Below, one piece after another: positions 13,716-32,130 of a stretch of DNA of 47,061 nt (positions are counted from its first letter, which is position 1; each line of letters begins with the position of its first letter). The notes beneath the pieces were generated by a model. The model did no database searches and was not told where the DNA came from. It saw nothing but the letters and a program-made list of their open reading frames with translations. The stretch is from a virus, in IMG/VR virus record IMGVR_UViG_3300010397_000055, positions 1-47,061 of that record; one strand, written 5' to 3'. Made by a program: the position numbers and the translations under genes.

Positions 13716-13727
13716 GTTGGAACCCCT

Positions 13728-13762
13728 TTCAACAAGTTTACTCACTTGTTGAAGAGAGTCAA
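13728..13762 (-). promoter_or_regulatory. Promoter with inverted-repeat operator upstream of the exported-protein gene
   Basis: Read on the minus strand, TTGACT (13762-13757), a 16-nt spacer and TAAACT (13740-13735) form a sigma-70-like promoter. A perfect inverted repeat, TTCAACAAGT and ACTTGTTGAA separated by six bases (13728-13753), fills the spacer and covers the -10 box, where a bound protein would block polymerase. Transcription would start close to the AAAGGGG ribosome-binding site. The same half-site occurs near 25967, 31167 and 31599. Confidence 0.65.
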
Positions 13763-23391: not shown

Positions 23392-23546
23392 GGCTTCAAT
23401 CTCCCACTCACCGGCCATACTCTGGCCCCATTCACCGGCAACCCATCCAGACCACGCAGCGCCGACCATGCCGCGAGCTCCGTCTTGAATGGACCCATGA
23501 ACTTGATTCCATCGCAGGCTGCGTAGAAAACAATTCGGCGCTTCAT
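23388..23546 (-). CDS. Small protein, 52 aa
   Basis: ATGA overlaps at both ends. The product (MKRRIVFYAACDGIKFMGPF...) has a beta-strand start and an aromatic/glycine-rich body, like the small alpha/beta proteins that are common in phage early operons (a strand, a helix TELAAWSALRGL, a strand). Unknown function. Confidence 0.5.
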   Translation of the reverse strand: MKRRIVFYAACDGIKFMGPFKTELAAWSALRGLDGLPVNGARVWPVSGRLKP

Positions 23547-24664
23547 CGCTTCCCCTCCGGCGCCTGGCAGGTTGGGCATTCAGTCTTGTCGCCACAGCTC
23601 GACGCGGAACAGTGGTAAACAAACCCGTCACCACCGCACGTCTCACACGCCGGTGGCGCCTGCTCACGGATGGAGGCGGGTGCGGAATCGAACAGAGAGC
23701 CCGACCGCACAACATTCTTCACAATCTCACGCCCCCACTTCACTAACTCATCGCGCTCATTGCGCAAGGCATCGCATGCGGAGCTTGCCCCGTAGCGCTC
23801 TGCCATGAGCTGCATCCGCGTCTTGTCGCCATCCCAGCGCCCAGTCTTCTCCTCGACTAGTGCCTTCAGCTCATCGCGCTCATTGCGGAATTGATGTGAT
23901 AGCCTGGTCGCCTCATCACACCGCGCCTCAGCAGCCTGCAAGCGAGCGCGGAGGTCAGAGTACAACTCTCTGTACTCATCTTCACGGCGCTCAGCATCTA
24001 TCAACTGAGTGCGAAGCTCTTCATGCGAGTCACAGAGCTTGAGCGCGCCGTCTACAATATATGGTGGCCAGAACTCTTCTATGGACTTCCGCGAAGCCTC
24101 AATGCCTTCCACGCTCAGCACCTCGCCTTGGTCGTTTGGTGGGCAGGGAGGGACTCGCACCCCCGGTGTTTCTGGTGTCACGGATTTACAGTCCGCTTCC
24201 TTCGCTACTTGGATACCTGCCCATGACTCATCTCGCCCTTCCATGTCGTCGATCATCGCCAGCCGGCCACGGAGATTAGCGCGGCACACCTCTATGTCAT
24301 GCAGTCCGTCGTCGGTGCAGTCGCTGCATAGGATGTCCTCGCCGCAGGCCATGCAGCGGCAGTTGCATTCGTGGTCACCAGGGGCCGGGTTGGTTCCGGC
24401 CGTTGCACAAACATTGCCGGGAGTCATCTCGGTCTCGGTCAACTGAGGCGAGTGACTCAACTTGGTTTTGTCCTCTGACCGCCCGTCAGAAGGCCCTGGC
24501 GATTTATCAAGCCCATTCCATTTGTCGCGACGGCGTGTGGCTTTGTCGAATGCCAACAGACAGTCGCGCAGCAGCTCCGCTAGAACGAAATCTGGCGTGT
24601 TGGAGCCATTCTCTGCGCTGTTCCGATTAATGGCGTCGCGCAGCTCTTCAAGTAGCTGACTCAT
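23543..24664 (-). CDS. Coiled-coil, Cys-rich early protein whose frame runs through a tRNA gene, 373 aa
   Basis: The ATG at 24664 overlaps the upstream stop. Residues 1-145 include a Cys-rich patch (CNCRCMACGEDILCSDCTDD). Residues 148-176 are simply the translation of the same-strand tRNA-Tyr gene (VAKEADCKSVTPETPG...). Residues 180-330 form a coiled coil (DEYRELYSDLRARLQAAEAR) and residues 335-370 hold two CxxC pairs (CETCGG; CPTCQA) that look like a zinc ribbon. The tRNA is 86 nt, not a multiple of three. The frame may therefore be two genes, the second starting at a GTG of 24121 or 24112 after the tRNA, joined by an accidentally open tRNA. One protein encoded across a tRNA is the alternative. 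Confidence 0.5.
   Translation of the reverse strand: MSQLLEELRDAINRNSAENGSNTPDFVLAELLRDCLLAFDKATRRRDKWNGLDKSPGPSDGRSEDKTKLSHSPQLTETEMTPGNVCATAGTNPAPGDHECNCRCMACGEDILCSDCTDDGLHDIEVCRANLRGRLAMIDDMEGRDESWAGIQVAKEADCKSVTPETPGVRVPPCPPNDQGEVLSVEGIEASRKSIEEFWPPYIVDGALKLCDSHEELRTQLIDAERREDEYRELYSDLRARLQAAEARCDEATRLSHQFRNERDELKALVEEKTGRWDGDKTRMQLMAERYGASSACDALRNERDELVKWGREIVKNVVRSGSLFDSAPASIREQAPPACETCGGDGFVYHCSASSCGDKTECPTCQAPEGKR
24137..24222 (-). tRNA. tRNA-Tyr (anticodon GTA), CCA encoded
   Basis: The minus strand folds into a complete class II tRNA of 86 nt. The acceptor GGGCAGG pairs with CCTGCCC, followed by A and an encoded CCA (24140-24137). The D arm is TCC/GGA with a 10-nt loop. The anticodon arm is GCGGA/TCCGT with loop CTGTAAA (anticodon GTA). 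A 15-nt variable arm follows, then a T arm GGGGG/CCCTC with loop TGCGAGT. The long variable arm is right for tyrosine in bacteria. The T loop lacks the usual second T (TGC instead of TTC), a mild oddity. The gene lies inside an open reading frame on the same strand, so it must be cut out of the operon mRNA or come from its own transcript. Confidence 0.88.
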
Positions 24665-25223: not shown

Positions 25224-25399
25224 TTCAGCACCTTCAAAGCACGAATAGCTTTTGCGCAAGCCGCGTTCTCTTCCCATGCGCCAAGCCGCTCACATTCAGC
25301 AGCGGCCTCCTCGAGAACTTCCTCTCGCGCTGCTGCAAGAATGTTACTGAGCTGAGAAATAGTCAGTGCAACATTGACACCAATGTCCTCGCCGCTCAT
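25220..25399 (-). CDS. Helical early protein, paralogue-like, 59 aa
   Basis: The ATG at 25399 overlaps the upstream stop and the stop overlaps the next start (both ATGA). The product, MSGEDIGVNVALTISQL..., ends in EEVLEEAAAECERLGAWEEN and IRALKVLK, similar to the C-terminal half of the downstream protein. The double overlap and this similarity support a real gene. Unknown function. Confidence 0.6.
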   Translation of the reverse strand: MSGEDIGVNVALTISQLSNILAAAREEVLEEAAAECERLGAWEENAACAKAIRALKVLK

Positions 25400-25818
25400 A
25401 GCGCATTACCCAATCGACCACGCAGGATGTTCCGCGCCTCTTTTGCGGCTCTGAGCGCCTCGCTTTTTCCTACCTCGAAATCCGCACGGAAACTCTCCGG
25501 CATGTAGTACGCGAACGATGTTAATATTTCTCTAGTCGTGCGCTCTGCGTCGCGCGCCCGCAGTTTCAGAGGCAAGCCCTCATTCTTGAGCGCGGCCAAG
25601 ACGCCTTCATACTTGGCGAGGACTATCTTTGGAACAACTACATGCGTCTCTGTGTTGAGGTCTTTCAAGTTCTGAAACCACGATTCAATGTTGTCCAGCA
25701 TAGTCGCGAGAACCTGACTGAGCGGCCGCTGCCCTGATTCCCCATCGCCTGTGAACCGCGCCAAGCGCGCCTGAATGCTCTCGCTCATCTGCTGATGAAT
25801 GGTTTTCTCTTCGCTCAT
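25396..25818 (-). CDS. Early protein of unknown function behind an RNA switch, 140 aa
   Basis: The ATG at 25818 follows AAAGGGG with six bases between. That site can pair with a complementary segment in the upstream 27-codon ORF, so its translation may be conditional. The protein is helical and soluble, with a basic patch (LKLRARDAERTTREILTSFA) and a C-terminal helix (KSEALRAAKEARNILRGRL). No cysteine, membrane segment or enzyme motif is seen. An upstream in-frame start at 25842 lies inside the switch structure and is unlikely. Confidence 0.6.
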   Translation of the reverse strand: MSEEKTIHQQMSESIQARLARFTGDGESGQRPLSQVLATMLDNIESWFQNLKDLNTETHVVVPKIVLAKYEGVLAALKNEGLPLKLRARDAERTTREILTSFAYYMPESFRADFEVGKSEALRAAKEARNILRGRLGNAL

Positions 25819-25821
25819 GAC

Positions 25822-25960
25822 AATCCCCTTTAAAGACGGCAAGGCACCTAGGGCATTTTGAAAGGGGATTCCAAAGTCATCCCTAGATGCCCGCCGTCAA
25901 CCTGCGTTGTTTGGTGCTTACTGCTCACCACTGAAATCCCCTTTCAACTTCTCTAGGGAT
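25822..25960 (-). promoter_or_regulatory. Candidate pseudoknot translation switch (leader RNA)
   Basis: In minus-strand order the leader contains ATCCCTAGA (25960-25952), TTGAAAGGGGATT (25947-25935, ribosome-binding site of the 27-codon ORF), TCTAGGGAT (25887-25879), AATCCCCTTTCAA (25870-25858), CCCTAGGTGCC (25853-25843) and TTTAAAGGGGATT (25834-25822, ribosome-binding site of the 140-codon gene). The central pair is complementary to both the upstream and the downstream pair. A long stem, GACGGC plus GGCATCTAGGG against CCCTAGGTGCC plus GCCGTC (25897-25835), puts AATCCCCTTTCAA in its loop, free to pair with either ribosome-binding site as a pseudoknot. The complementarity is seen directly; the switch is inferred. 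Confidence 0.6.
25848..25931 (-). CDS. 27-codon leader ORF inside the switch
   Basis: Tandem GTG codons (25931, 25928) follow TTGAAAGGGG with six bases between. The product (VVSSKHQTTQVDGG...MP) shows no obvious functional pattern. Its last codons overlay the CCCCTTT segment that can mask the next gene's ribosome-binding site, and its stop lies 29 nt before that gene. A ribosome moving to the stop would cover the masking segment, so the ORF looks like a leader peptide whose translation matters more than its sequence. Confidence 0.5.
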   Translation of the reverse strand: MVSSKHQTTQVDGGHLGMTLESPFKMP

Positions 25961-26000
25961 AATCTCTTCAACAAGTCATGTCAAGCGCTTTCAACAACTT
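25956..26000 (-). promoter_or_regulatory. Promoter with two direct operator half-sites
   Basis: On the minus strand TTGACA (25984-25979) is a perfect -35 box; TATCCC or TTATCC, 16-17 nt on, is a moderate -10. Two copies of the recurring half-site flank or overlap it, ACTTGTTGAA (25976-25967) and AAGTTGTTGAA (26000-25990), in direct orientation 23 nt apart. It would drive the leader ORF and the small-gene operon downstream, separately from the ATPase gene upstream. Confidence 0.55.
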
Positions 26001-30284: not shown

Positions 30285-30484
30285 GATTGCATCTCTCCCT
30301 TAAGTGCAAGGACACACTTATGTGTGTGGGCGGTGCGCCGCCCAGCGAGCAGCTCCATCCCCAAAGGACCAAAACCGCCACGCATGATGACAGTGCCGCA
30401 GTCAGGACACTCCCAGCCAATGATTTCTGACTCAGCATTGCAGAGCCAGGCACCATCACGTCTAACAACGTCAGCGAACCTCAT
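30281..30484 (-). CDS. Small zinc-binding-like protein, 67 aa
   Basis: AAAGGGG lies nine bases before the ATG, the same ribosome-binding site as the accessory genes at 13715, 25818 and 31111. WECPDCG near residue 25 and HTHKC near residue 55 form a possible C2HC or C3H site. The protein opens an operon of small genes that ends at the 29292-29316 terminator. In the 99-nt gap upstream (30485-30583) a short hairpin (GTGAG/CTCAC) is the only further feature. Confidence 0.6.
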   Translation of the reverse strand: MRFADVVRRDGAWLCNAESEIIGWECPDCGTVIMRGGFGPLGMELLAGRRTAHTHKCVLALKGEMQS

Positions 30485-30583
30485 GACTCAAATCCCCTTT
30501 CAGTGAGCGCCATCATCAGTGCAGGGATGCTCAACCCTACAGACGTAGTGAGTTTGTCTCACCACGTTTCGGCAGTTAGGAAA

Positions 30584-31111
30584 TTAGTAAACGTACTTGT
30601 CCAAGTCGCAGGCACACGGAAACTCGCTGTACAACTGCGCATGCACTTTGCCGACGACACTGTTGTCGTAATCCTTTAGTCCGAAAAATGCGTCGTCGGT
30701 GTGAGCGCCATCTGAGTCGCCCGTCGTCGCGCGCTTGTACCAATGCCCAAACTCATGGACGAAGGCGGAACGGCCAACGCAGGGCCCGCTGTAGCGGTAG
30801 TAGATAGTGTCTTCAATCTGGCAACCCTCGGACCGAGGAGGGCAAACCAAGTCGAGGCCGGCTCTATCTAACAACACGACATGAAGCGGGGCAGTTACAG
30901 CGCTCTTACCCCAGATAGAGAGAGTCAACTCGATGGCCCGCTCCAACTGCTTAGGCGACACATCATGGCTGTTGGCCTGTACATCAGCCTCGTCCACGCT
31001 GAAGCTCGAGCTCGTAAAGCTGTCCTCCTCACAGACCGGTGCTGCGTCGTTGGGAGCGCTGTTCTCGCTCCCACAACCCGCTAGCACCAACGAAGCAATC
31101 ACAAAGCGCAC
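30584..31111 (-). CDS. Lipoprotein zinc metalloprotease (HExxH), 175 aa
   Basis: The start is a GTG behind AAAGGGG. Residues 1-13 form a lipoprotein signal with a perfect lipobox, LAGC (Cys 13). A polar linker follows, and the zinc motif HEFGHWYKR stands near residue 120 with GAHTDDAFF some 15 residues later, a likely third ligand region. Six or more cysteines (VCPPRSEGC; CACD) imply disulfides outside the cytoplasm. The protein is a small zincin of no family I can name. It would sit in the host membrane after infection and may process surface proteins or act in superinfection exclusion. It has its own operator region and stands apart from the replication genes. Confidence 0.7.
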   Translation of the reverse strand: MRFVIASLVLAGCGSENSAPNDAAPVCEEDSFTSSSFSVDEADVQANSHDVSPKQLERAIELTLSIWGKSAVTAPLHVVLLDRAGLDLVCPPRSEGCQIEDTIYYRYSGPCVGRSAFVHEFGHWYKRATTGDSDGAHTDDAFFGLKDYDNSVVGKVHAQLYSEFPCACDLDKYVY

Positions 31112-31117
31112 GCGAAA

Positions 31118-31206
31118 CCCCTTTCAAGTGTGGCCAGCTCAAGCGCTAGTCACAGTTCGCTTTCTCTTCAACATCTGTGCCACTTGTTGAAGAGAATCGA
31201 AAGGGG
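31118..31206 (-). promoter_or_regulatory. Operator repeat and masked ribosome-binding site of the protease gene
   Basis: A perfect inverted repeat with 12-base arms, TTCTCTTCAACA and TGTTGAAGAGAA, spans 31162-31196 with an 11-nt centre; its core matches the operator at 13728-13753. Read on the minus strand, ACCCCTTTC (31207-31199) just after the regulator gene is complementary to the protease's GAAAGGGGT (31125-31117), with the inverted repeat between them. A readthrough transcript could hide the start, while one begun inside the gap would not. TTGAAG...TAGCGC is the only promoter-like pair and is weak. Confidence 0.55.
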
Positions 31207-31208
31207 TC

Positions 31209-31514
31209 TTAGAGGCCTTTTAGCGCGTTTCTAGTTGTTGATAGCGAATTGTTATTCACAGTAAAGTGTGTAGAACTTTTCGCGGCTTCAACAATTGCGG
31301 CTTTCTGTTCGTGTTCCCTCACTAATTTGTCAGCCTCAACTGCGTAACGCATTTCGCTAGGGCTGATGTGGTGGCGTGTAAGTATTATCTGCAATCCACG
31401 ACGCGAGATGCCAAGCGCGGCCGCCGTGTTTGTTACATGCCAGTTATTCTCGCGCAGCGCCCGGACGATAACTACTTTCTGCGCCAAGAGCATCTCTTCA
31501 TCGTAACGGGACAT
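31209..31514 (-). CDS. Fis/NtrC-type helix-turn-helix regulator, 101 aa
   Basis: Residues 10-50 (KVVIVRALRENNWHVTNTAA, then ALGISRRGLQIILTRH) match the Fis-type DNA-binding domain found at the C-terminus of NtrC-family activators: a helix, ...T.AA..LGISR..L, and a recognition helix. Here the domain stands near the N-terminus without an ATPase, followed by a polar tail. I start at the ATG of 31514; an upstream frame to 31574 adds residues lacking a pattern. It is the first gene of the leftward arm, next to the divergent control region, so it probably governs early transcription and is a candidate for binding the recurring TTCAACAAGT sites. Confidence 0.7.
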   Translation of the reverse strand: MSRYDEEMLLAQKVVIVRALRENNWHVTNTAAALGISRRGLQIILTRHHISPSEMRYAVEADKLVREHEQKAAIVEAAKSSTHFTVNNNSLSTTRNALKGL

Positions 31515-32019
31515 GTGCCTCACAATGAGCAAATGCCGCGCCGAGGGGCGGTGCAGCACTACTACGTACAACACTCCAATGTACTAGGTGCAAGTAATTT
31601 GTTGAAGACGAGGAGAGGCGTTTATAGAATCTTAGGTTCTAACGCTTTTTCCTACGAGTTGTTTTCATCGTTCGGTTTTTCCGACATGTTGGTGTGAGTA
31701 ATATGCACCACACACATTACTCTCGCCCGCAACGCGTGAGTTGACGTGCGGGCTCGCGATCGCTCGCGTGAGATGCAATCCCTCTTGTGGCGCGCGGGTG
31801 GGCTGCTACTACTGAACACTTGTCTCCACCTTAATATAGCGGATGTCGGTATTTCTGGCCGCCACTCACACCACCACCCACCCCGACGCATCCCTCTGTT
31901 CCCCCCTCATAGGGGGGTGGGGCGGGAGGGAACTACGATAGGAGTTCACACACGCAGTAAAAATCCTGCCTGCCATGGGCCTTTTTGATTTCAAAAAAGA
32001 TGTTGCTTTTTTCCAGGGT

Positions 32020-32077
32020 CTGGGTTATGACAAGGGCAGCTTATACGAGTATAAGCAACCCTGTCATACCACCCCAG
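32020..32077. repeat. 58-nt near-perfect palindrome
   Basis: From outside in: CTGGGT with ACCCCAG, TATGACA with TGTCATA, GGG with CCC, and a perfect core GCTTATACGAGTATAAGC (32039-32056). Only a few bases are unpaired (single A, CA and AA, and CC). It could extrude as a cruciform, bind a dimeric protein, or act as a strong RNA hairpin. There is no T tract on either side, so it is not a classical terminator. Confidence 0.75.
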
Positions 32078-32079
32078 TA

Positions 32080-32106
32080 GCTCACCTAATGAAATCGCTC
32101 ACCTAA
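32080..32106 (+). repeat. Tandem direct repeat GCTCACCTAA
   Basis: Two identical 10-base copies start at 32080 and 32097, a 17-nt period (about one and a half helical turns). They lie beside the large palindrome and 24 nt before the first rightward gene. They may be iteron-like or activator sites. Confidence 0.6.
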
Positions 32107-32130
32107 CTACCTTCACGCGGTCCGACGAAA

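Follow-up and report, generated by a model that had tools for sequence, protein, structure and literature searches.

A phage leader carrying a complement of its own ribosome-binding sites: a possible translational-coupling device

We found that the minus-strand leader of a 140-codon phage gene carries, under the last codons of a 27-codon open reading frame, an element (B2) complementary to the ribosome-binding site (RBS) of both frames, and that a second such anti-RBS lies on the stop codon of another ORF of the same genome. On the strength of this layout we favor, with a confidence just short of even, the reading that the leader is a translational-coupling device acting by RBS sequestration. 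We propose that the leader ORF is translated and that expression of the downstream gene depends on it.

Results

The features of the leader are listed here by position in the window, that is, the whole stretch of 47,061 nucleotides that was analyzed.

25979..25984, minus strand: candidate -35 box TTGACA, followed after a 17-nt spacer by TATCCC, a poor -10
25962..25976, minus strand: operator-like motif ACTTGTTGAAGAGAT, within the promoter spacer, single copy
25960-25952, minus strand: A1, ATCCCTAGA, a 9/9 complement of A2, overlapping the candidate -10
25947-25935, minus strand: B1, TTGAAAGGGGATT, RBS of the leader ORF, with a spacing of 6 nt from GGGG to the GTG at 25931
25848..25931, minus strand: leader ORF, from GTG 25931 to TAG 25850-25848, 27 codons, VVSSKHQTTQVDGGHLGMTLESPFKMP
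25898-25881, minus strand: 5' arm of stem S1, containing A2
25887-25879, minus strand: A2, inside the 5' arm of S1
25870-25858, minus strand: B2, AATCCCCTTTCAA, anti-RBS, in the 27-nt loop of S1 and the last leader codons
25853-25847, minus strand: A3, CCCTAGG, inside the 3' arm of S1
25853-25835, minus strand: 3' arm of S1, containing A3 and the leader stop codon
25834-25822, minus strand: B3, TTTAAAGGGGATT, RBS of the 140-codon gene, its GGGG 6 nt before ATG 25818
25396..25818, minus strand: 140-aa gene, an orphan, predicted to be all-helical at low confidence; its ATG lies 29 nt after the leader stop

The six elements from A1 to B3 had been named in a preliminary description of this DNA, and all of them lie on the minus strand where it had placed them. 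Its assignment of B1 and B3 as ribosome-binding sites fits in both sequence and spacing, and the ORF coordinates confirm that B2 underlies the last codons of the leader ORF. An open frame of 27 codons is not rare by chance, and the openness of this one is weak evidence for a leader ORF. No promoter was reported at the leader by a consensus promoter scan. Because A1 overlaps the only candidate -10, it probably lies upstream of the RNA start and outside the short RNA, as had been cautioned at the outset; a transcript start near 25950 is likely.

B1 and B2 form Watson-Crick pairs at 13 of 13 positions, and B2 pairs with B3 at 12 of 13, with one C.T mismatch and a longest run of 10 bp; with the 9/9 match of A1 to A2, the complementarity claimed for A2-B2 toward both A1-B1 and A3-B3 is real. 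The stem is likewise present and holds B2 in its loop as described, but it comprises 18 bp with one bulged C rather than 17 bp. In its exact 65-nt frame, loop included, the S1 hairpin has a folding energy of -37.2 kcal/mol, and no other hairpin measured was as stable; among 9,400 65-nt windows genome-wide (both strands, 10-nt steps, on a grid that did not fall exactly on the S1 frame), the lowest value was -36.0 kcal/mol. The whole-leader fold has a z score of -2.4, and 2 of 200 shuffles were equally stable. An intrinsic terminator at the stem was rejected, as only TTT follows the stem and a terminator scan found none there. Searches for known Rfam leaders and riboswitches gave no match at gathering score in the window except a tRNA, and weak chance hits at the leader.

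When the downstream flank was shuffled 3,000 times, the 13-nt B1:B2 complement was never reached (0 of 3,000); shuffling the upstream flank gave the 10-nt B2:B3 run in 2 of 3,000 cases. Taken by itself, the B2:B3 pairing energy is less remarkable, since 145 of 3,000 shuffles equalled it. The matches of B2 to B1 and to B3 are not independent, because both of these RBSs are members of a single class. We also took 62 candidate starts and determined the longest perfect RBS complement within ~110 nt on either side, giving 124 comparisons (the starts were picked from ORFs, so that single ones may be wrong, although the three top cases do not depend on this). The longest complements in this phage were 13 nt (B1:B2), 10 nt (B2:B3) and 9 nt (the gene starting at 31111), whereas the maximum over 368 RBS/flank comparisons in three other phages of similar size was 8.

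Whether B2 hides B3 is a separate matter. In a pseudoknot-free series of growing RNAs, the read-through transcript forms A1:A2 first (0.93), B1:B2 next (0.89-0.99) and finally S1 (1.0), and in an RNA starting near 25950, without A1, B1:B2 stands at 0.96-0.98 until the 3' arm of S1 appears and then falls to 0. After S1 has formed in full, the nested folds show no pairing of B2 with either RBS, and B2:B3 is never the nested optimum, so that a B2:B3 pairing must be a pseudoknot. In the nested fold, roughly half of the GGGG of B3 is unpaired and B3 is largely accessible. B3 is of ordinary SD strength among the RBSs of this phage and needs no help on that count.

A coarse rigid-helix test of the pseudoknot accepted none of 60,000 placements at 13 bp, 48 at 12 bp, 4,098 at 10 bp and 20,115 at 7 bp. 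The B2:B3 pairing would gain from -9.7 (7 bp) to -13.1 kcal/mol (10 bp); the loop hairpin that is lost costs 5.0 kcal/mol, and the penalty for a pseudoknot is ~7 to 10 kcal/mol. Since the lost hairpin and the penalty offset the gain, the net energy is marginal, at roughly zero, and the modeled pseudoknot, sterically possible at 7-10 bp, is possible but not strong. The H-type pseudoknot originally suggested to hide the start can therefore be kept only in part: 7-10 bp fit, but 13 bp do not, the energy is marginal and B1 is the preferred partner. Indeed, B2 matches B1 better than B3, and B1 competes for B2 at equal or better energy; at equilibrium B2 may thus shut down the leader ORF while B3 stays accessible, the reverse of the proposed OFF state.

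This preference raises the alternative that B1:B2 is the decisive pairing. Formed early, it would shut off leader initiation until completion of the stem released B1, so that the element would time initiation of the leader ORF, while B3 would be unregulated and would resemble B1 as a member of the same RBS class. The perfect match over 13 nt, the fall of the one mismatch in B3, and the persistence of B1:B2 in the nested series until the S1 3' arm appears are all consistent with this. However, it does not account for why B3 sits at the foot of the stem, or for the similar arrangement at 31.2 kb described below, and we regard it as quite unlikely.

The RBS motif GAAAGGGG occurs 6 times in the 47-kb window, where 1.25 copies are expected. 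Four copies are RBSs (of the leader ORF and of the genes starting at 30484, 31111 and 13715), and two are anti-RBSs (B2 and 31199-31206); B3, with TAAAGGGG, is a fifth member of the RBS class. In gene orientation, GAAAGGGG is found only at start codons with SD spacing. The features concerned are the following.

31209..31574, minus strand: Fis-type HTH protein (PF02954), 121 aa, candidate binder of the operator motif
31197..31209, minus strand: second anti-RBS, AGACCCCTTTCGA, its first base being the last base of the Fis-HTH stop codon
31162..31196, unstranded: 12-bp inverted repeat TTCTCTTCAACA/TGTTGAAGAGAA, operator-like; as RNA, a hairpin stacked inside the sequestering helix
31115..31127, minus strand: RBS TTGAAAGGGGTTT of gene 30584-31111, paired in the MFE fold
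30584..31111, minus strand: 175-aa ORF with a lipobox-like start (VRFVIASLVLAGC), LAGC, and an HEFGH motif
30491..30503, minus strand: RBS-class copy CTGAAAGGGGATT, before ATG 30484, with no anti-RBS nearby
13720..13732, minus strand: RBS-class copy TTGAAAGGGGTTC, before ATG 13715

The second anti-RBS lies ~70 nt before the RBS of gene 30584-31111, to which it is complementary over 9 nt by Watson-Crick pairs (a length reached by 9 of 3,000 shuffles) and over 13 nt with G.U pairs. The predicted fold of this region places a 13-bp nested helix over the RBS, with a z score of -3.4, and 0 of 200 shuffles were as stable. Both anti-RBSs sit at the end of the ORF that precedes the RBS, one under its last codons and one on its stop codon. 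GGGG is followed by a different letter at each locus, and the anti-RBS changes to match (GGGGA:TCCCC at 25.9 kb, GGGGT:ACCCC at 31.2 kb); this is one compensated position between two loci of one genome and not a phylogenetic test. As judged from these pairings, the second anti-RBS/RBS pair makes RBS sequestration more likely as the principle of the leader. Gene 30584-31111 itself gave no match in family searches; it may encode a lipoprotein, and HEFGH is typical of zinc peptidases. Nearby, the divergent intergenic region 31892-32130 has a GC-rich inverted repeat (CCCCCCTATGAGGGGGG) in its vicinity and a turn in GC skew near 32 kb, which makes it a candidate origin or divergent control region.

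The two loci also bear on the possibility that the leader has no regulatory role, a partial duplication and inversion of an RBS region having left the repeats, with the leader ORF as a by-product and the 140-codon gene read directly from B3. The blocks A1-B1-GTGAGC and A3-B3-ATGAGC do resemble a degenerate direct repeat, and the commonness of open frames of this length and the accessibility of B3 in the nested fold point the same way. Against it stand the S1 stem, which forms the most stable hairpin measured, and the occurrence of anti-RBSs at two unrelated loci with locus-matched letters, and we hold this reading to be distinctly improbable.

A third alternative is that the repeats form a DNA operator array bound by a regulator of the phage, for which the Fis-HTH protein (31209-31574) is a possible candidate, and that the complementarity in RNA results secondarily from the sites being inverted. 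The sites would be the TTGTTGAARRG copies at promoters, and TTGAAAGGGG, used in both orientations, would be a related half-site; the TTGTTGAA sites would be candidate Fis-HTH targets. TTGTTGAARRG occurs 4 times, against 0.09 copies expected, at three loci that resemble control regions (13.7, 26.0 and 31.2 kb); the copies at 31.2 and 13.7 kb form perfect dyads of 12 and 10 bp, respectively, and one array has the Fis-HTH gene immediately upstream of it. At 13.7 kb, moreover, an operator half runs directly into the RBS-class motif (CTTGTTGAAAGGGG), so that there may be a relationship between the operator and the RBS class. Against an operator array, GAAAGGGG in gene orientation is confined to start codons with SD spacing, B2 is placed away from the promoter, ~90 nt into the transcribed leader, the pairing letter is locus specific, and the 18-bp stem contains no operator motif. 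An operator array, which would also account for the inverted copies, is a serious alternative for the leader, if an unlikely one. TTGTTGAARRG in its own right is probably a DNA operator, perhaps bound by the Fis-HTH protein. The repeated operator-like motif ACTTGTTGAAGAGA is seen at 13725-13756, 25962-25976 and 31162-31196, with dyads at 13.7 and 31.2 kb.

One further, and very doubtful, suggestion is that the private RBS class TTGAAAGGGG(A/T)TT, with its five starts and two anti-RBSs (A type and T type), constitutes a small regulon in which the B2 loop could act both in cis and in trans. B2 pairs with B1 at -18.8, with the RBS of gene 30484 at -18.7 and with B3 at -14.3 kcal/mol, and the 31.2-kb element finds its best partners in the T-type RBSs that precede starts 13715 and 31111.

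For the 140-aa protein, the searches run returned no family or homologue, and an AF2 model from the single sequence reached a pLDDT of 59.5. Relatives were sought with the 140-aa protein, a 352-aa AAA protein, the DNA polymerase, a polymerase alignment and the major head protein as queries. The only clear relative was an 8.7-kb IMG/VR contig (L057) whose head and portal proteins are 70% and 46% identical to those of the phage (window 37146-42345); this contig comprises structural genes, without the leader region. No homologue of the leader was found by tblastn and DNA searches of phages and plasmids or by scans of viral and genome contigs. Pattern scans returned AT-rich hairpins only for the B2-B3 arrangement, no match for B1-B2, and unrelated contigs only for the operator-RBS arrangement. 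A tRNA-Tyr(GTA) gene with encoded CCA (24137-24222, minus strand) lies within an ORF of the same strand, 23543-24664; either this ORF is not a gene over its full length or the tRNA is nested inside it.

Discussion

In the coupling model that we favor, S1 would stand as long as the leader ORF is untranslated, and 7-10 nt of B2 in its loop could pair with B3, or with B1, damping initiation. A ribosome that reached the TAG, which lies in the 3' arm, would cover that arm together with the 3' part of B2 and open the hairpin. B3 would then be free just past the front edge of the ribosome, and the same or a new ribosome could start the 140-aa gene. The same principle would operate at 31.2 kb without a pseudoknot, the anti-RBS at the Fis-HTH stop closing a nested helix on the next RBS. 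B1:B2 might be a transient early fold, or a feedback limiting leader initiation.

At both loci the upstream frame overlaps or abuts the masking strand. Masking of the downstream RBS is predicted as a nested fold at 31.2 kb and only as a pseudoknot of marginal energy at 25.9 kb. The two-state switch originally put forward is supported in part, by its RBSs, the placement of B2, the expected opening of the stem by a terminating ribosome and the second anti-RBS locus, but weakened by the energy of the pseudoknot, the preference of B2 for B1 and the position of A1.

By analogy, the mechanism appears nearest to that of coupled phage genes (MS2, f1) and to the repZ pseudoknot of the IncI-alpha plasmid ColIb-P9. 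repY-repZ of ColIb-P9 shares with the phage leader a short leader frame, a hairpin, a pseudoknot and an RBS whose access is tied to leader translation. That pseudoknot activates, under the control of an antisense RNA. The one proposed here would repress, and no antisense RNA is known here; because of these two differences we do not class the phage leader with ColIb-P9, a system described by Asano and Mizobuchi in 1998 (cited in PMC10724649).

In an established model of coupling, the ribosome that reads the upstream frame unfolds the RNA; examples are MS2 coat-lysis, f1 VII-IX and E. coli rpmI-rplT (PMC12548453). As in those systems, upstream translation is thought to open the structure masking the next RBS; here (25.9 kb), however, the upstream frame is a 27-codon leader, and the anti-RBS, carried in the loop of a hairpin, is complementary to the RBS of the leader itself as well. 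In a survey of leader genes, the preferred stop-to-start distance was ~10-16 (PMC4833913), and the 29 nt between the leader stop and the ATG are longer than typical. Reinitiation by the terminating ribosome may be an addition to coupling by unfolding.

Translational attenuation of erm genes (PMC8274638) is similar in that a leader ORF overlaps the structure governing the downstream RBS, but the phage leader has no drug-induced stall, resistance gene or known stall peptide, and nothing in the leader or the gene suggests stalling. The com-mom genes of phage Mu (PMC6483171) likewise have a masked start on a phage mRNA and a regulated opening of it; there, the RNA-binding protein Com opens the start, whereas no such protein has been identified here. 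The principle of coupling is already known; it is the layout that is unusual.

If this reading is correct, the phage couples genes by means of inverted RBS copies placed where the preceding frames end, and a single anti-RBS competes for two RBSs. It would also supply a clear, sequence-based rule by which other phages could be searched, namely, complements of an RBS under the last codons or the stop of the upstream frame, and a natural layout for building coupled gene pairs.
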